A DNA stretch of 30,910 bases, taken from a candidate division Zixibacteria bacterium SM23_81 (GTDB lineage Bacteria; SM23-81). The notes below the pieces were generated by a model, which ran no database searches, had not been told where the DNA came from, and saw only the letters and a program-made list of their open reading frames with translations. A program made the position numbers and the translations under genes. Where the stretch lies: positions 1-30,910 of the forward strand of contig LJUY01000026.1 of NCBI GenBank assembly GCA_001304015.1, written 5' to 3'. Below are positions 23,635 through 30,910 of the stretch, one piece after another; position 1 is the stretch's first letter, and the number at the start of each line of letters is the position of its first letter.

Positions 23635-24513
23635 CTACTCTACGTTCTGGACCTGCTCGCGAATTCGCTCAATTTCCTCCTTAATCTCCACCACCAGATG
23701 AGCCACCTGAACATCATTGGCCTTTGATCCCATGGTGTTCGCCTCTCGATTCATCTCCTGGAGCAGAAAAGTCAGTTTTCGGCCCACGGGACCTGAGTTA
23801 TCCAAGACGGAAAGAAAGAGCTTGTTGTGACTGTGAAATCGCACGCATTCTTCGGTGATATCGACCCTTTCGGCCACCACAGCCACTTCCATGGCCAGAC
23901 GCTGCTCATCCACCTCAGGAGAATTCAGAAGAGCAGCGATTTTGTCCCTCAGATGCGTTCTTACCTGCTCCACTTTCTGGGGATAGAGCTCTTCGATCTC
24001 CGAGACAATCTCCTCCAACCGTTGAATCCGCTGGGCCATGTCTCGATGAAGCTGTTCGCCCTCCATGAGCCGCATGCGCTGCAAATCCTCCACACCTGCT
24101 CCCACGATTTGTTCCACCAGAGCCCAAGCTTTTTCCAGGTCCAATTCCTCTCTCTCCTGCTTGAATATCTCGGAAAAAGTAACCAGATGCTCGAGACGAA
24201 CGTCGTCGGCGAGCCCAAGAACGTCTTTGAGATCAGTGAGGAGTCTATGAAACGCTCTGGCCGCATCCGAGTCTAAGGTCATCCGCGTCGAGCCCTCCTC
24301 AAGTTCCTCCCAAGTCAGAGACAGGTTAATTTTCCCACGCTTAATGGTTTTCTGAACCACATCTTTGACACGCGACTCCAGAGCTTGAAGGAATTTGGGC
24401 ATGCGAATCTGAATGTCTAAGAAACGGCTGTTCACCGAGCGTAGTTCCAACCCAAGCTTCACATTGTCACGCTCCAGCTGACCCTGTCCGCAACCCGTCA
24501 TGCTGGTGATCAT
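23635..24513 (-). CDS. yicC: YicC/YloC-family endoribonuclease
   Basis: 292 residues, the usual size. The N-terminus MITSMTGCGQGQLE and RSVNSRFLDI are family hallmarks, as are RGKINLSL, EVDEQRLAMEVAVVAERVDITEE and the C-terminal KLTFLLQEMNREANTMGSKAND. YicC proteins are endoribonucleases reported to influence small-RNA stability in E. coli. It is first in the yicC-gmk-rpoZ-topA-trmFO-xerC-PHP operon and has its own promoter. Confidence 0.95.
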   Translation of the reverse strand: MITSMTGCGQGQLERDNVKLGLELRSVNSRFLDIQIRMPKFLQALESRVKDVVQKTIKRGKINLSLTWEELEEGSTRMTLDSDAARAFHRLLTDLKDVLGLADDVRLEHLVTFSEIFKQEREELDLEKAWALVEQIVGAGVEDLQRMRLMEGEQLHRDMAQRIQRLEEIVSEIEELYPQKVEQVRTHLRDKIAALLNSPEVDEQRLAMEVAVVAERVDITEECVRFHSHNKLFLSVLDNSGPVGRKLTFLLQEMNREANTMGSKANDVQVAHLVVEIKEEIERIREQVQNVE

Positions 24514-24542
24514 ATCCGCCTCCAGTTTTTTAACAAACTCAA

Positions 24543-24571
24543 TATATACAAAAGATGTTATTGATTGTCAA
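24543..24571 (-). promoter_or_regulatory. Promoter of the yicC operon
   Basis: The minus strand has TTGACA (24571-24566), a 17-bp spacer and TATATA (24548-24543). It is back to back with the rqcH promoter. Confidence 0.7.
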
Positions 24572-24618
24572 TTCAAATCTTGACTTCTCTTAAAAATTCC
24601 CCTTTGGGAAGGAAAATA

Positions 24619-24647
24619 TTGACAAGAGGCGAGTATGTCGATATTAT
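24619..24647 (+). promoter_or_regulatory. Promoter of rqcH
   Basis: TTGACA at 24619-24624, a 17-bp spacer, and TATTAT at 24642-24647, one of the best matches in the window. The leader would be about 90 nt. Confidence 0.75.
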
Positions 24648-24743
24648 ATGCACATCTCCTTCAAAATTGGCCGCCTTTTACAAGAGACGTGAACTTCGTG
24701 ACATTACCTGTCTCCTGAACTGTTTTGGAAACGTAAGATTCAA

Positions 24744-26510
24744 ATGAACCTTCCCTTACTCACCATCACTGCCCTAGCCGGAGAATTGCGAAAGAGCTGG
24801 GTTGGCGGCATCATCACAGGAGTGGAATCTCTTTTCGGGACGGGACTGTGTTTGCAGGCTGCCAGAGCTTTGCAGACCACCTTCCTCTGCGTGGGCACTC
24901 ATCCCAGCTGTTTTTTCCCTTTTCTCTGCACCAAGCCCCATCTCGCTGGACGGAAGAGTCCCTTCGTGCGGAGCCTCCGACGACTCCTGGATGGCTACAC
25001 CATCACCTCTGTTGAACAGTGGCGATATGACAGAATTCTGCGCATTGAGTTTCGAAAGATCGAGGAAATTCATGGAGTTCGCCAGCGGGCCCTGATCCTG
25101 GAGCTTATTCCTCGTCGCCAAAATATGATCATGGTGGACTTGGCTAGCGGAGTGATCACGGAGGTCCTTCGGCAGGTTACCGGAGAGATGAGCCGCGTTC
25201 GACACGTTCTGCCCAACCACCCCTATCAACCACCTCCCAGGCTCGGGGGAGTTCACCCCCGGACAAGTTCTCCGGAAGAATTCCTGAAGGCAGCCCGTCT
25301 TCATCCTCGAGAACAACTAGAGAAGGCACTTATCAGATGTCTCCCGTGGGCGTCCGGCTTTCTCTTGAACGAGCTGTTCTTACGGAAAAGCCTCGATATA
25401 AGCATGTCCATATCGAAGGTGAGGGAAACTGAGCTTTTGAATCTCTGGAAGATCGTGGACACATGGGTACGAGAATTGGAAAGCGGTCCTCCCCGCCCCA
25501 CGCTGATCTTGGGCCTAAAGAACCACAGCCAGACCCTGCTCCCTTACGAACCGGAATCGGTACCCCATGGTCAAAAGCGCTTCTTTGCCACCCTGAGCCA
25601 GGCACTGGAGTACCTCTTTGGTAATTTCACAGAACGGTGGGCTGGAGAAAAAGACAGAAGGGCCATGGCCGCCGCCATGAACAGGGCGCTGCGGAGAGGC
25701 CGAAGGGCCTTGAAGAAATTGGAGGTCGGTCTCTCCGATTCTCGAAGGGCCGAGGAATATAAGAAACTTGGCGAGGTCATCGCTGCAAATATGGCTCGAT
25801 TGAAAAAAGGCATGTCCCAAGCACATTTGCCCGACCCCTACTCCACAGGAGGCAAGGCGATTCTGGTCCCTCTGGATCCCAGGTTAAGCCCAGCGGATAA
25901 CGCTCAGCGGTATTTCAAACGGTTTCGCAAGGCCAAAGCGGGGCTGCCTAAAATCGAAAGTCGGTTCCAGGAAGTAGACCTATTTCTTCAAAAGCTGGAA
26001 GGCCTCAGACAGGCCCTTCGGGCTTCCTCCCAGAGGGACAAAATGGAGGAGATCAAAAGCCAACTCAGCCAGCTAGGCATTCAAATCTTCTCGGAAGGCG
26101 CCGGAAGATCGTCCAGAGATCGAAGATCCAGGAAGCAGCCATTGACCTTCACTTTGGGCGACGGGTGGACTTTATGGGTGGGGCGAAACAACCGGGAGAA
26201 TGAGTTGCTTACCCACAGGATGGCCGATCACCGGGATTTGTGGTTTCATGCCCAAGGAGTTTCTGGCTCTCACGTGATCCTTCGCCGGGAAGGGCGCAAG
26301 GAGGCACCTAGCAAAAAAGTCCTTGAGGAAGCTGCCTCGGTGGCCGCCTATTTTAGCCGCGCCCGCCATTCCAAAACGGCGCCTGTGGTCTACACAGAGA
26401 AACGATACGTGCGTAAACCGAGGGGCGCAAAACCCGGCTTGGTGGCCATAGAGAGGGAAAAGACACTGTTTGTCGCGCCCAAATTGATCCCACGAGATGT
26501 CGAGAAATAA
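24744..26510 (+). CDS. rqcH: NFACT-family ribosome quality control factor RqcH
   Basis: 588 residues. The N-terminal NFACT-N domain has the DR pair (WRYDRILRIEF, Asp96-Arg97), which in B. subtilis RqcH is needed for Ala-tRNA recruitment. A central predicted coiled coil (about 305-450) and a C-terminal NFACT-R domain follow, with WTLWVGRNNREN and DLWFHAQGVSGSHVIL at about 490-512. In bacteria RqcH binds obstructed 50S subunits and adds C-terminal Ala tails to stalled chains. The presence of DR suggests an active tailing enzyme rather than only an adhesin (FbpA). The ribosome binding site is weak. It is divergent from yicC and ends 5 bp before the next promoter. Confidence 0.93.
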   Translation: MNLPLLTITALAGELRKSWVGGIITGVESLFGTGLCLQAARALQTTFLCVGTHPSCFFPFLCTKPHLAGRKSPFVRSLRRLLDGYTITSVEQWRYDRILRIEFRKIEEIHGVRQRALILELIPRRQNMIMVDLASGVITEVLRQVTGEMSRVRHVLPNHPYQPPPRLGGVHPRTSSPEEFLKAARLHPREQLEKALIRCLPWASGFLLNELFLRKSLDISMSISKVRETELLNLWKIVDTWVRELESGPPRPTLILGLKNHSQTLLPYEPESVPHGQKRFFATLSQALEYLFGNFTERWAGEKDRRAMAAAMNRALRRGRRALKKLEVGLSDSRRAEEYKKLGEVIAANMARLKKGMSQAHLPDPYSTGGKAILVPLDPRLSPADNAQRYFKRFRKAKAGLPKIESRFQEVDLFLQKLEGLRQALRASSQRDKMEEIKSQLSQLGIQIFSEGAGRSSRDRRSRKQPLTFTLGDGWTLWVGRNNRENELLTHRMADHRDLWFHAQGVSGSHVILRREGRKEAPSKKVLEEAASVAAYFSRARHSKTAPVVYTEKRYVRKPRGAKPGLVAIEREKTLFVAPKLIPRDVEK

Positions 26511-26514
26511 AGGC

Positions 26515-26544
26515 TTGACATCAAGTCCCGTGACCAATTATACT
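26515..26544 (+). promoter_or_regulatory. Promoter of the SH3-M48-cyclase operon
   Basis: TTGACA at 26515-26520, an 18-bp spacer, and TATACT at 26539-26544. It starts only 4 bp after the rqcH stop codon. Confidence 0.7.
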
Positions 26545-26613
26545 TGAAGTGCCGCTGAATCGACACGGGCACATTTCAACTCTCATCAAACTCATCTCAC
26601 AAGGAGGTGCCGC

Positions 26614-27093
26614 TTGACCAAGAAAATCCTTTTCATCGCGTTGTCGGCACTGCTGCTCTCCGCAGGCCTGCTGATGGCCGCCACGAGCTTGAAGGTCCGG
26701 GTCAAATCAACCAAGCTGCGGAGAAGCCCGAAGTTCTACGCCAGCTCCATGGCCACCCTCCGGTTTGGGGAATCGCTGGAGAAACTGTCGGAGCAGGATG
26801 GCTGGATTCATGCCCAGACCTCAGCAGGAACGACCGGCTGGATTCACTCCAGCGCTGTGACGACCCCTAAGTTCACCGTAACAGCCCAGAGAACAGCCCA
26901 GGAAGAGACCAGCGCCGACGAGGTAGCCCTGGCAGGCAAGGGTTTTAATGAGCAGGTGGAACAGGAGTACCGCAAGTCCACGGAACTGGACTACACATGG
27001 GTAGATCGTATGGACCAGATGGTGGTCACCGAGGCCGAGATGGAGCGCTTCTTCAGGGAGGGTAAGCTCGGAGAATACGGGGGTGGGAGATGA
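26614..27093 (+). CDS. Secreted bacterial SH3-domain protein
   Basis: 159 residues from a TTG start that has a strong AAGGAGG 6 nt upstream, so the unusual start is well supported. A signal peptide (residues 1-23, ending LLMAA) is followed by an SH3b domain at about 25-85: VRVKSTKLRRSP, LRFGESLEKL, GWIHAQ and GTTGWIHSSAV. Such domains usually bind peptidoglycan or proteins. The last 70 residues are a charged helical tail (EVALAGKGFNEQVEQEYRKS). The stop overlaps the next ATG (ATGA), so it is translationally coupled to the M48 protease. Confidence 0.85.
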   Translation: MTKKILFIALSALLLSAGLLMAATSLKVRVKSTKLRRSPKFYASSMATLRFGESLEKLSEQDGWIHAQTSAGTTGWIHSSAVTTPKFTVTAQRTAQEETSADEVALAGKGFNEQVEQEYRKSTELDYTWVDRMDQMVVTEAEMERFFREGKLGEYGGGR

Positions 27094-27992
27094 AGGCTAT
27101 GAGAAAGAATATGACCATGTTCCTGGTGATGCTTCTGCTCCTTTCCTGCGCCAGCGTGAGCCAAATGGGCACCAAAATCTTGGAAGAAGAGGGCGTCATC
27201 GATGAGCAACAGAAGGAGTCCATCGACAGGGTAACCGCAGCCGTGGAGCACAGCTTTGCCGACCTCACCGGGGAGCAGGAGTATTACCTGGGCCGCTCGG
27301 TGGCGGCCAAAATCCTGACTTCCTACCAGGTTTACGAGAACACATCGCTGACGACATATATTAACCGGGTGGGCAACGCCGTGGCGTATGCCTCTGACCG
27401 ACCTGAACTTTATGGCGGTTACCATTTCCTATTGTTGGATACTGAAGAGATCAACGCTTTCGCCTGCCCGGGCGGTTTCATCTTCATCACTCGAGGACTC
27501 CTGGGCACCTGCAGGAACGAGGAAGCCCTCGCCAACGTACTGGCCCACGAGGTGGGACATGTTTGCGCCAAGCATGGTCTCAAGGCCATCAAGAAATCGA
27601 GGCTTATGGAGGCCTTCGACGTGCTGCTCAAAGAAACTTCCAAACACTACACCCAGGAGCAACTAAACAGGCTGACCGAGGCCTTCGATGGAGCCTTGGG
27701 GGACATCGTCGACCAACTGGTAATAAAAGGTTACAGTCGCCAGCAGGAGTACGAGGCCGATCGCCTGGGCCTGAAATATTCACATTTAGCCGGCTACGCC
27801 TGCTCTGGCATGGTGCAATCCCTCCAGGCCATGGTCACGAGCGCTCAGAAGACCACGGGGCTGGGATTCTTCAAAACCCATCCGGTTCCTCAGGATCGCC
27901 TGGAGAAGGTTCAGCAGGAGATCGCCTCTAAGAGCTATAGTCGAGCAGTGGAGCCAACCAGAACGAAGCGCTTTCAGATGACTGTAGGATAA
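27090..27992 (+). CDS. M48-family zinc metalloprotease, lipoprotein
   Basis: 300 residues with a lipoprotein signal ending LLLLSC (Cys20). The catalytic motif is HEVGH (His153-His157), and the third zinc ligand is predicted in QEYEADRLG (Glu220). Other family marks are NAFACPGGFIFITRGLL and HPVPQDRLEKV. It resembles BepA/LoiP-type periplasmic M48 proteases that act in outer-membrane quality control, but without the TPR half of BepA. The start overlaps the SH3 gene; the cyclase follows 5 bp after the stop. Confidence 0.93.
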   Translation: MKAMRKNMTMFLVMLLLLSCASVSQMGTKILEEEGVIDEQQKESIDRVTAAVEHSFADLTGEQEYYLGRSVAAKILTSYQVYENTSLTTYINRVGNAVAYASDRPELYGGYHFLLLDTEEINAFACPGGFIFITRGLLGTCRNEEALANVLAHEVGHVCAKHGLKAIKKSRLMEAFDVLLKETSKHYTQEQLNRLTEAFDGALGDIVDQLVIKGYSRQQEYEADRLGLKYSHLAGYACSGMVQSLQAMVTSAQKTTGLGFFKTHPVPQDRLEKVQQEIASKSYSRAVEPTRTKRFQMTVG

Positions 27993-27997
27993 GTCGC

Positions 27998-30127
27998 ATG
28001 GCGCAAGTCCGAACAGAGAAGATTATCCGGGGAGGGATTCTGGGCCTATGTGTAGGCCTGGTCATTCTGCTGCTCCACGTGGCGGGCCTTTTCCATAGCC
28101 TGGAATGGAAAAGCTGGGACTGGCGGCTGCGAAGATTCTCCCGCCCGGGCCGAGCCAGTACAGAGATCGTCATCGTGTTGGTAGATCAACAGAGCCTTGA
28201 TTTCTACGAGGCCGAGGGCCTGGCGTGGCCCTGGCCCCGGCAGCTCTATGCAGCGGCCGTTCACTACTTCCGGTCTGGTGGAGCACGAGCGATAGTCTTC
28301 GATGTGCTCTTCTCAGAAAGCTCTGTCTACGGCATGGAGGATGACCTCTCCTTCGGCCAGTCCATCTCTGAGGCGGGAAATGTGGCTTTGGCCTTGTTCC
28401 TGAGCGGCCAGGAAGCAGCCGCTCGAGACACCGTGGGAGAGAACATCCTCAAAAGGCACGCCATTGAGATGGCCGACTTTCCTCAGGAAAAGACAGTTTT
28501 CCAGCGCTCCGCGACGCTTTCGGTGGAGGAGATTTTGAGCGCAGCGCGCTCCGTGGGAAATGTCCGCTTCGATCCAGACGGCGACGGGATCTTCCGTCGC
28601 CTGCCCCTGATTTTCTCCTACCAAAACGCCCTTTATCCGGCCCTTCCCCTGGCCGTGGCGCACCAGGTCCTGGGCGGGGCTTTTTTAGTCAGGGGCGATG
28701 GAAATCTGGAGCTCTCCGGCAGAAAGGTGCCCCTGGATGAAAATGGCCGCCTGATCATCAAGTACTACGGTCCAGATGGCACCTATCGAAGCGTCTCCAT
28801 GGCCAGCGTCATCCAGTCACAGCTTCAGCTGGAAGAGGGCCTGGAGCCCCAGCTGAATCCATCCATGTTTCAGGACAAAATCGTTTTAGTGGGTTTCAGC
28901 GCCCCTGGTCTGTTGGACCTCCGCCCCACTCCCTTCAGCTCCGTTTATCCCGGTGTGGAGGTACACGCCACGGTCATCGACAATCTCCTTCAGCGCGACT
29001 TCTTCTCCTGGGTTCATCCTCTAGCAACGGCGCTTCTGATCGTCTTGTTGTCCCTGGTCACGGCTCTGGCCGTCTCCCTGCCCAAACAGATCTGGCAGAT
29101 GTCCTTGTGGTCCCTCATCTGCCTGGCTATTCCCTTTGTCGCGGCCATCTCCGCTTTCGGTGAAGGCTTCTGGCTCCCCTTTGTGGCCCCTCTGGCCGGA
29201 GGGCTGATCTCATTTGCCGGGGGCTCCGTGCTCAACTATGCCCTGGAGGGTCGGCAGAAACGCTTCGTCAAGAAAGTATTCCGCCATTACCTGAGTCATC
29301 AGGTCATAGATCAGATCCTCAAGGATCCCAGCAAGCTGAGTCTGGGTGGTCAGCGACGTGAGATGTCCGTCTTCTTCTCCGACGTGGTCGGATTCACCTC
29401 CGTGGCCGAGAGCCTGAGTCCAGAGGATCTCACCGAGCTTCTCAACCTCTATCTCTCCGAGATGACCCAAATTATATTCGCCCAAGGTGGCACCGTGGAT
29501 AAATACATCGGAGACGCCATCGTGGCCTTTTGGAACGCGCCCCTGGATCAGCCGGACCATGCCAAAAGAGCCTGTCTGGCGGCCCTGGATTGTCAGCATC
29601 GTCTGGCGCAGTTGAGGGATCAAATTCGCCAGAAAAGCGGCCGGGAGCTGTTCATGCGCATCGGTGTCAACACGGGCCCCATGGTGGTGGGTAACATGGG
29701 CTCCCGGGATCGGTTCGACTACAGCGTGCTGGGCGATTCCGTCAATCTGGGAGCTCGCCTGGAGGGGGCCTGTAAACAGTACGGGATCTACATCCTTGCT
29801 GGCCAGGAGGCTTACCAAGAGGCCCAGGAGTTCATAGAGGCTCGTGAGGTGGACCTGATCCGGGTGGTGGGCAAGACCGAGCCGGTGCGAATCTTTGAGT
29901 TGTTGGCTCGGAGGGGAGAATTGGATGAGCAGCGCCTTCAGAAACTGGAGAGATTCCGCAAAGGTCTGGACCTGTATCGTCACAGAAAGTGGACTGCGGC
30001 CGTGGAGATCTTCCGGGGCTTGCAGCAAGATCCAGTGGCCCAGGTGTACATGAAGCGCTGCAAAGAGTATCAAACTTCTCCCCCACCCGACGATTGGGAT
30101 GGGGTTTGGGAGCTGACCAAGAAGTAA
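27998..30127 (+). CDS. CHASE2-domain class III adenylate/guanylate cyclase
   Basis: 709 residues. One N-terminal transmembrane helix (about 12-33), then a periplasmic CHASE2 sensor (about 40-335: FDVLFSE, GNVRFDPDGDGIFRRLPL and KIVLVGFSAPGLLDLRPTPF). Three C-terminal transmembrane helices (about 341-361, 368-387, 391-415) precede a cytosolic cyclase domain. The catalytic residues are intact: metal Asp462 (FFSDVVGFT) and Asp506 (YIGDAIVAF), Lys502 and Asp574 (purine selection, adenine-type), and Asn583 and Arg587 (transition state). It should make cAMP in response to a periplasmic signal. The C-terminal 80 residues form a helical tail. Third gene of its operon. Confidence 0.95.
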   Translation: MAQVRTEKIIRGGILGLCVGLVILLLHVAGLFHSLEWKSWDWRLRRFSRPGRASTEIVIVLVDQQSLDFYEAEGLAWPWPRQLYAAAVHYFRSGGARAIVFDVLFSESSVYGMEDDLSFGQSISEAGNVALALFLSGQEAAARDTVGENILKRHAIEMADFPQEKTVFQRSATLSVEEILSAARSVGNVRFDPDGDGIFRRLPLIFSYQNALYPALPLAVAHQVLGGAFLVRGDGNLELSGRKVPLDENGRLIIKYYGPDGTYRSVSMASVIQSQLQLEEGLEPQLNPSMFQDKIVLVGFSAPGLLDLRPTPFSSVYPGVEVHATVIDNLLQRDFFSWVHPLATALLIVLLSLVTALAVSLPKQIWQMSLWSLICLAIPFVAAISAFGEGFWLPFVAPLAGGLISFAGGSVLNYALEGRQKRFVKKVFRHYLSHQVIDQILKDPSKLSLGGQRREMSVFFSDVVGFTSVAESLSPEDLTELLNLYLSEMTQIIFAQGGTVDKYIGDAIVAFWNAPLDQPDHAKRACLAALDCQHRLAQLRDQIRQKSGRELFMRIGVNTGPMVVGNMGSRDRFDYSVLGDSVNLGARLEGACKQYGIYILAGQEAYQEAQEFIEAREVDLIRVVGKTEPVRIFELLARRGELDEQRLQKLERFRKGLDLYRHRKWTAAVEIFRGLQQDPVAQVYMKRCKEYQTSPPPDDWDGVWELTKK

Positions 30128-30290
30128 TGCTGGATCCTGGATGCTTGATGCTGGTGGAAAAAGGTCGGCAGGAAGCAGTGGCAATGGCAATAGAAATGAC
30201 AGTGGCAGTTGGCAATGAAAAGAGAGTAGGCAGTGGGCAGGAGGCAGTAAAAGACGATTGGCAGTTGACAGTTACAGTTGGCAGGTTTTT
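30128..30290. repeat. Degenerate low-complexity block of TGGATGCT-like and GGCAGT-like words
   Basis: The first 25 bp read as TGGATCC/TGGATGC/TTGATGC variants. The next roughly 120 bp contain about ten variants of GGCAGT, GGCAAT and GGCAGG at irregular spacing. No two units are exact tandem copies. It is untranslated sequence downstream of the cyclase. Confidence 0.7.
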
Positions 30291-30295
30291 CACGA

Positions 30296-30395
30296 GTCAT
30301 GAGTCTCGAATCTCGAATTTCTGGTCTCGGCTTTCCACGGTTCTCGGATCCCGGTTTTCTCAGGATTCTCGAATCCCGAGTCTCTAATCTCGGTT
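30296..30395. repeat. Degenerate low-complexity block of TCTCGAAT-like words
   Basis: About ten variants of TCTCG[A/G] (TCTCGAAT, TCTCGG, TCTCGAAT, CCGAGTCTC) in 100 bp, directly after the GGCAGT block and ending at the terminator hairpin. Confidence 0.7.
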
Positions 30396-30398
30396 AAC

Positions 30399-30430
30399 AA
30401 AGGCCCTCCTCATTAATTGGGGAGGGCTTT
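30399..30430 (+). terminator. Terminator of the cyclase operon
   Basis: AAAG, a bulged G, then CCCTCC pairs with GGAGGG and CTTT around a loop of about 10 nt, followed by CTTGT. The T run is weak. Confidence 0.65.
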
Positions 30431-30465
30431 CTTGTCAGCTTTGTCTTTACTACGCCCACTTTATC

Positions 30466-30494
30466 TTGACTGTGCACTAGCTTTTTGCTATTAT
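30466..30494 (+). promoter_or_regulatory. Strong sigma70-type promoter facing the integrase remnant
   Basis: TTGACT at 30466-30471, a 17-bp spacer, and TATTAT at 30489-30494. Only a 16-codon frame (30525, MRLHKLQSFRW) and the truncated recombinase lie downstream. Confidence 0.65.
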
Positions 30495-30576
30495 TAGGAC
30501 GCAAAAAAACATTTGTCTGCCGAGAATGAGACTGCACAAGTTGCAGAGTTTTAGGTGGATAGGCTGGTTTGTATAA

Positions 30577-30910
30577 TTAATAATTCGGCGAGCCAGTTGT
30601 CATACATTTCGCCACTCCTTCGCGACCAATTTGCTTGGTGAGGGATACGACAACCGAACCGTACAGGATCTGATGGGCCATAAAGACGTGCGAACAACCA
30701 TGATCTACACTCATGTGCTTAGTCCCGTGGTGGTAGGGGAGTTAGAAGCCCCTTTGATTCCTGTGAGAAAGGACATTTATCCATGCATGTTATATGGTTT
30801 CCAGATAATACGTAGCCATAAACTCGAATCGACCATAATGTGTTTGAAATATGAAGATTACAAGCATAGCAATTCGCGTGTTATATGGATAATTTGCAGT
30901 ATGAAGACTT
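30577..30910 (+). pseudogene. Truncated integron-integrase-like tyrosine recombinase (C-terminal fragment)
   Basis: The frame opens after a TAA at 30574 and has no start codon, signal or N-terminal domain. From 30595 it encodes [17 protein letters not shown], then [20 protein letters not shown] and VL. This keeps the HxxR, the GH and the catalytic Tyr of tyrosine recombinases, and the wording is typical of integron integrases. The expected next motif (about RGGxGVRSPLD) is replaced by [12 protein letters not shown], after which the sequence is not recognisable; the frame stays open to the edge. The N-terminal two thirds, including the first catalytic Arg, are absent, so it should be inactive. 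Confidence 0.75.

Follow-up and report, generated by a model that had tools for sequence, protein, structure and literature searches.

A conserved gene unit of an SH3 protein, an M48 lipoprotein protease and a CHASE2 cyclase, and its possible link to cAMP-binding MscS channels

Near one end of a contig from candidate division Zixibacteria bacterium SM23_81 (LJUY01000026.1), three closely spaced genes encode a secreted SH3 protein, an M48 metalloprotease and a CHASE2 adenylate cyclase. This trio raises the question of whether its members form one functional unit and, if so, what such a unit could do for the cell. The whole stretch of DNA analysed, hereafter the window, comprises 30,910 nucleotides. 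An earlier reading of its sequence, the original prediction, had proposed an envelope-sensing unit and had set recurrence of the three-gene order in other genomes as the test by which it could be refuted. Comparative analysis strongly supports the three genes as one functional unit, and points to an MscS-family channel with a domain that binds cyclic nucleotide monophosphates (cNMP) as a possible partner.

Recurrence and co-inheritance of the trio

A diverse sample of 116 genomes was first searched with the M48 protein, and the best neighbourhoods were then inspected. SH3, M48 and CHASE2 cyclase genes adjoined in several unrelated genomes, and CHASE2 was encoded within 4 kb of six of the seven full-length SH3 homologues in this sample. 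About 85,000 species were also scanned with the SH3 protein as the only anchor, and the best 80 loci were analysed. The M48 gene adjoins the SH3 gene in 77 of these 80 loci and a CHASE2 cyclase is present in 68. The loci span 14 NCBI phyla (including Thermodesulfobacteriota, Planctomycetota, Verrucomicrobiota, Myxococcota, Krumholzibacteriota, Elusimicrobiota, Gemmatimonadota, Spirochaetota and Acidobacteriota), Aminicenantes and unnamed lineages; many come from metagenome bins, and these taxon names are provisional. The order that was to decide the original prediction thus recurs in many phyla, far beyond chance.

The loci that depart from this pattern are mostly cut short by their contigs: the sequence stops at the SH3 gene in L081 and L123 and before any cyclase could follow in L047, L082 and L089, while L106 begins 0.6 kb before the SH3 gene, so that an upstream cyclase would fall off the contig. 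A linked cyclase is probably lacking in L118, L121 and L125.

The commonest spacing between the SH3 and M48 genes is a 4-bp overlap, as in the window. Among 62 complete loci, 52 have the order SH3-M48-cyclase and 10 the order cyclase-SH3-M48, and this order changed only twice on either the M48 or the cyclase tree. Pairwise distances in the two trees are correlated (r=0.87, whereas none of 2000 permutations exceeded 0.25), a value that partly reflects the shared history of the organisms. The trio cyclases group into what is essentially one subfamily when set beside 33 background CHASE2 cyclases drawn from the 116-genome sample (4 label changes, shuffled mean 29). None of the 33 background cyclases had an SH3 or M48 match in the flank read, which rules out such neighbours as a general trait of CHASE2 cyclases; together with the SH3-anchored survey, it also rules out a chance neighbourhood. 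Even in genome G066, where the SH3-M48 pair lies ~10 kb from the cyclase gene and on the opposite strand, the cyclase still falls inside the trio subfamily.

Because of this recurrence, the tight spacing, the correlated trees and the dedicated cyclase subfamily, the three genes are strongly supported as one functional unit, in agreement with the original prediction. The SH3-M48 pair is its tightest link, as judged by the 4-bp overlap, by its persistence without a linked cyclase and by the occurrence of a one-chain form. The latter was found in genome G026 (L128:8223-9455), in which related SH3 and M48 parts are fused in a single chain of 410 aa.

Two further loci depart from the common pattern. 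In a decayed copy (L057:5929-6999), the SH3 gene precedes what is left of the cyclase catalytic domain, and neither M48 nor CHASE2 was detected. The 9-Mb genome G031 carries a divergent cyclase-SH3-M48 cluster (L127:7298-11890) outside the main subfamily.

Predicted parts of the three proteins and layout of the locus

The SH3 protein consists of a signal peptide, an SH3 domain (residues 24-82; SH3_3 in Pfam, 1.3e-8), a linker and a conserved C-terminal helical module (residues 102-150) with the motif EVALAGKGFN..VE. EVALAGKG belonged to the search anchor, and its invariance is therefore partly due to selection; F111, E116, F146 and G150, which lie outside the anchor, are likewise invariant among homologues. 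The predicted structure (predicted local distance difference test, pLDDT, 83) shows a signal helix, the SH3 domain and the helical module. In a structure search, this model matched SH3 domains of NlpC/P60-type wall peptidases, and among the matches listed none clearly spans the C-terminal helices. Assignment to TIGR04211 (SH3_and_anchor) was ruled out (31.6 bits versus an equivalog cut-off of 65).

The M48 protein (Peptidase_M48 in Pfam, 1.8e-31) carries the motif HEVGH at residues 153-157, with H153, E154 and H157 invariant in 52 of 52 homologues and the third zinc ligand, E220, in 51 of 52. It also retains the HPx4R active-site-plug motif (264-270) as defined for BepA (PMC7950410), with H264 and R270 conserved in 51 and P265 in 49 of the 52 homologues. 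A lipobox cysteine is present at position 20, and 47 of 52 homologues have Cys at this column. Its NCBIfam scores fall far under the cut-offs of the BepA, LoiP and YcaL types; identity with BepA (NF052400) was rejected at 99.7 versus 570 bits, with a length of 300 aa and no match to tetratricopeptide repeats (TPR).

The cyclase combines a first transmembrane (TM) helix, a CHASE2 domain (Pfam 3.7e-60; 204.1 bits versus a cut-off of 26.3), three TM helices (about 341-428), a class III catalytic domain (449-640; Guanylate_cyc 1.8e-20, 73.7 bits versus 21.9) and a C-terminal helical tail ending in Lys709. Its catalytic residues are intact, as had been stated: the metal-binding D462 and D506, the substrate lysine K502 and the transition-state residues N583 and R587 are all invariant in 41 homologues. 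Position 576 is Thr or Ser in these homologues. Class IIIb adenylate cyclases typically combine such a Lys with Thr/Ser, and a product of cAMP (cyclic AMP) rather than cGMP would fit this pair. The AlphaFold model (pLDDT 91) has the same succession of one TM helix, CHASE2, three more TM helices and the catalytic domain. The latter matches CyaB and CyaC, and the whole-model Foldseek and VIA lists were filled by catalytic-domain matches.

The predicted placement of all three parts towards the periplasm is consistent with these features. The N-terminus is hydrophobic in 84 of 87 SH3 proteins, the M48 protein has its lipobox Cys, and the CHASE2 domain is predicted to be periplasmic, lying between predicted TM helices.

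The features of the locus are collected in Table 1. The three-gene arrangement of the original prediction is exact in its coordinates, in the ATGA overlap and in the 5-bp gap. Its claim of a shared promoter probably holds. The site before the SH3 gene is the sole promoter-like candidate on the + strand within 24647-30466, and a single promoter for the three genes is likely from the sequence. An NFACT/RqcH-like gene (24744-26510) with a promoter-like site of its own (24619-24647) lies directly upstream, and terminator prediction gave none between its end and the SH3 gene; read-through into the trio is therefore possible. At the other end, the predicted terminator would close the SH3-M48-cyclase transcription unit. 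An Rfam search of 24400-30910 gave no match to an RNA element. The interval from the cyclase stop to the terminator (30130-30400) contains imperfect direct repeats (TGGCAGTTGGCA-like 12-mers and one 49-nt pair), and a fragment at 30631-30909 resembles the C-terminal end of a tyrosine recombinase, interrupted by the contig end.

Table 1. Genes and predicted expression signals at the trio locus of the window
Feature	Position	Strand	Remarks
Promoter-like site TTGACA-18-TATACT	26515-26544	+	Consensus match only, 11/12 positions
Shine-Dalgarno AAGGAGG	26601-26607	+	6 nt 5' of the SH3 TTG start (sequence)
SH3 protein gene, 159 aa, TTG start	26614-27093	+	
M48 metalloprotease gene, 300 aa	27090-27992	+	ATGA (4-bp) overlap with SH3 gene
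CHASE2 adenylate cyclase gene, 709 aa	27998-30127	+	5-bp gap after M48 gene
Predicted intrinsic terminator, strong hairpin plus U-run	30400-30433	+	Free energy (dG) -22.9 kcal/mol, z -5.2; inverted repeat I1

A channel and a hydrolase beside the trio

Clustering of the neighbouring genes revealed two more recurrent members. Pfam identified them as a metallo-β-lactamase (MBL)-fold hydrolase (35 of the 80 loci) and an MscS channel that carries a cyclic-nucleotide-binding domain (MscS-cNMP channel; 30 loci). All five genes occur in 26 of the 80 loci in the order SH3-M48-cyclase-hydrolase-channel; in L053, L064, L070 and L119 the channel is placed otherwise or the hydrolase is missing. These two genes, which often complete the operon, were not seen in the original prediction. 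Channel presence shows about 10 changes on the tree, and the linkage has therefore been gained or lost repeatedly. In the 116-genome sample the channel and the trio co-occur (6 of 9 trio genomes versus 13 of 116 genomes, p=4e-5, or 2e-4 without the linked G061; kinship ignored). In G061 itself the MscS-cNMP gene (L032:10237-11732) lies in two frames, through either a frameshift or an assembly error.

The HxHxDH metal residues of the MBL-fold hydrolase are invariant in 15 aligned rows. The protein scores 66.2 bits against the cyclic-nucleotide-degrading phosphodiesterase NF041851, short of the equivalog cut-off of 400, and also matches RNase Z below cut-off; a function as cAMP phosphodiesterase is possible from its sequence.

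The source genome of the window (3.07 Mb) is 93% complete, and the missing 7% limits claims of absence. At the thresholds used, it encodes one class III cyclase, that of the window, one CHASE2 protein and one cNMP-binding protein. This single protein is an MscS-cNMP channel (C18:12802-14259) that holds PF00924, PF21082 and PF00027 in one chain and has the phosphate-binding cassette GEMSL...RRSAT. No CRP-like regulator was detected at these thresholds, under which divergent cyclases or receptors (e.g., of the GAF type) could escape detection.

Other cNMP-binding proteins were also encountered near CHASE2 cyclases. The supposed channel of L124 proved to be a SulP-STAS transporter with a C-terminal cNMP-binding domain, encoded directly upstream of the trio (L124:7488-9716). 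It was dropped from the channel count and is a possible alternative cAMP effector. Background CHASE2 cyclases in L149, L177, L179 and L180 are likewise adjoined by other cNMP-binding proteins, and linkage of CHASE2 cyclases to cNMP receptors may thus be more general.

A proposed circuit, its rivals and known systems

Considering that the trio subfamily of cyclases occurs almost only with the SH3-M48 pair, the simplest order of events runs from the pair to the cyclase, to cAMP and to the channel. We accordingly lean towards a conserved envelope-to-channel circuit of cAMP signalling, with the trio as its input half: SH3 and M48 would regulate the cyclase, and the channel would be gated by cAMP. 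In the periplasm, SH3 protein and M48 lipoprotein would act as a pair, with the SH3 domain probably docking on the cell wall and the C-terminal helices probably holding or gating the protease. The pair would set the activity of the CHASE2 cyclase, either by cleaving or by binding in a manner that follows the state of the envelope; the original prediction, too, had suggested that the SH3 protein and the protease could act upstream of the CHASE2 sensor. cAMP could then bind the cyclic-nucleotide domain of the MscS channel and alter its gating, with ions or solutes moving under envelope stress; this step is suggested by gene linkage and by the single cAMP receptor detected in the source genome. 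Where present, the MBL-fold hydrolase would probably degrade cAMP and end the signal, a role proposed from its fold and its place in the operon. The conserved gene unit itself is shown, whereas the trigger, the target of the protease, the contacts between the proteins and the direction in which control runs are inferred. A more specific version is conceivable yet doubtful: the SH3-M48 pair would read damage to the wall or outer membrane, proteolysis or release would switch the cyclase, and cAMP would open the mechanosensitive-type channel without transcription. If true, this version would give many uncultured phyla a second-messenger response to envelope stress that differs from sigma-E, Cpx and Rcs.

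Several observations weigh against the envelope-to-channel circuit. L104, L108 and L113 hold SH3-M48 pairs and truly lack a linked cyclase, a further unlinked pair occurs in L033, and the SH3 homologues of L058, L069 and L092 have no obvious signal peptide, given the start codons chosen. In the source genome the channel lies on a different contig from the trio, and the search there gave no close homologue of the MBL-fold hydrolase. Several trio loci, mostly from Desulfobacterota, are without a linked channel, three of the nine trio genomes of the sample are without a full-length channel, and both p values for co-occurrence take no account of shared ancestry.

The same genes could also be connected in other ways. 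The SH3 protein and the protease might be a maturation or quality-control pair that folds, trims or degrades the CHASE2 cyclase or the channel and carries no signal. Envelope-protein quality control is the task of the nearest characterised M48 relatives, BepA, LoiP and YcaL (PMC7950410; NCBIfam matches), and dedicated co-inheritance would also suit a client-specific chaperone or protease. However, the 33 sampled background CHASE2 cyclases have no such neighbours, and the SH3 domain together with the retained HPx4R plug suggests a regulated, localised activity, which leads us to regard this explanation as unlikely. We give somewhat less credence again to mere co-regulation, in which a quality-control pair of the outer membrane and an independent sensor-cyclase would belong to one envelope-stress operon without direct coupling. 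The predicted periplasmic orientation of all three proteins and the pairs that lack a linked cyclase (L033, L104, L108, L113) would agree with it, but the cyclase subfamily is partner-specific, the trees are correlated and the unit persists across many phyla, which goes beyond what shared regulation usually preserves. A reversed direction, with cAMP and the channel controlling export or activity of an SH3-M48 pair that serves as envelope-remodelling effector, appears highly improbable. The pair does stand without the cyclase and may therefore be the ancestral working part; yet it is predicted to lie in the periplasm and contains no cytoplasmic part that could bind cAMP, and the only cNMP-binding protein detected in the source genome is a channel, not a transcription factor.

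All components of the envelope-to-channel circuit are of known kinds, and their combination appears to be undescribed, as had been supposed: in the open-access literature, none was found that combines at least three of CHASE2, M48, adenylate cyclase and SH3, and the papers listed for other wordings did not describe it either. Bacterial cyclic-nucleotide-gated (bCNG) channels belong to the MscS family. They have MscS β and C-terminal domains followed by a C-terminal cNMP-binding domain, as do the channels found here. We know of no report tying bCNG channels to a dedicated operon of CHASE2 cyclase and periplasmic protease, and to our knowledge the control of bacterial cAMP-binding MscS channels is unclear. 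The ligands of CHASE2 were not known as of 2016 (PMC5192318). The unit thus offers candidate partners for both CHASE2 sensors and cAMP-binding MscS channels in one conserved operon. If the circuit operates as proposed, it would also be an envelope-stress response that relies on cAMP and a channel, in lineages of which few envelope systems have been studied.

Among known systems, the window M48 protein shares HExxH, the third Glu ligand and the HPx4R plug with E. coli BepA, LoiP and YcaL (PMC7950410) and is a predicted lipoprotein like LoiP and YcaL; it has no TPR domain, and its gene lies together with those of an SH3 partner and a cyclase. The Burkholderia BiofilmReg operon (PMC5192318) likewise places a secreted protein of wall-binding type, LysM-FecR, beside a CHASE2 sensor, whereas its output is a histidine kinase/response regulator and no protease, cyclase or channel takes part. 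In the NsrA-CyaD1/CyaD2/CyaK-Clr system of Sinorhizobium meliloti (PMC13001267), an envelope component likewise feeds CHASE2 adenylate cyclases. Its output is the transcription factor Clr, with M48, SH3 and a channel not described there, and its envelope partner is the outer-membrane β-barrel NsrA, whereas the operon partners of the cyclase in the window are an SH3 protein and an M48 protease.

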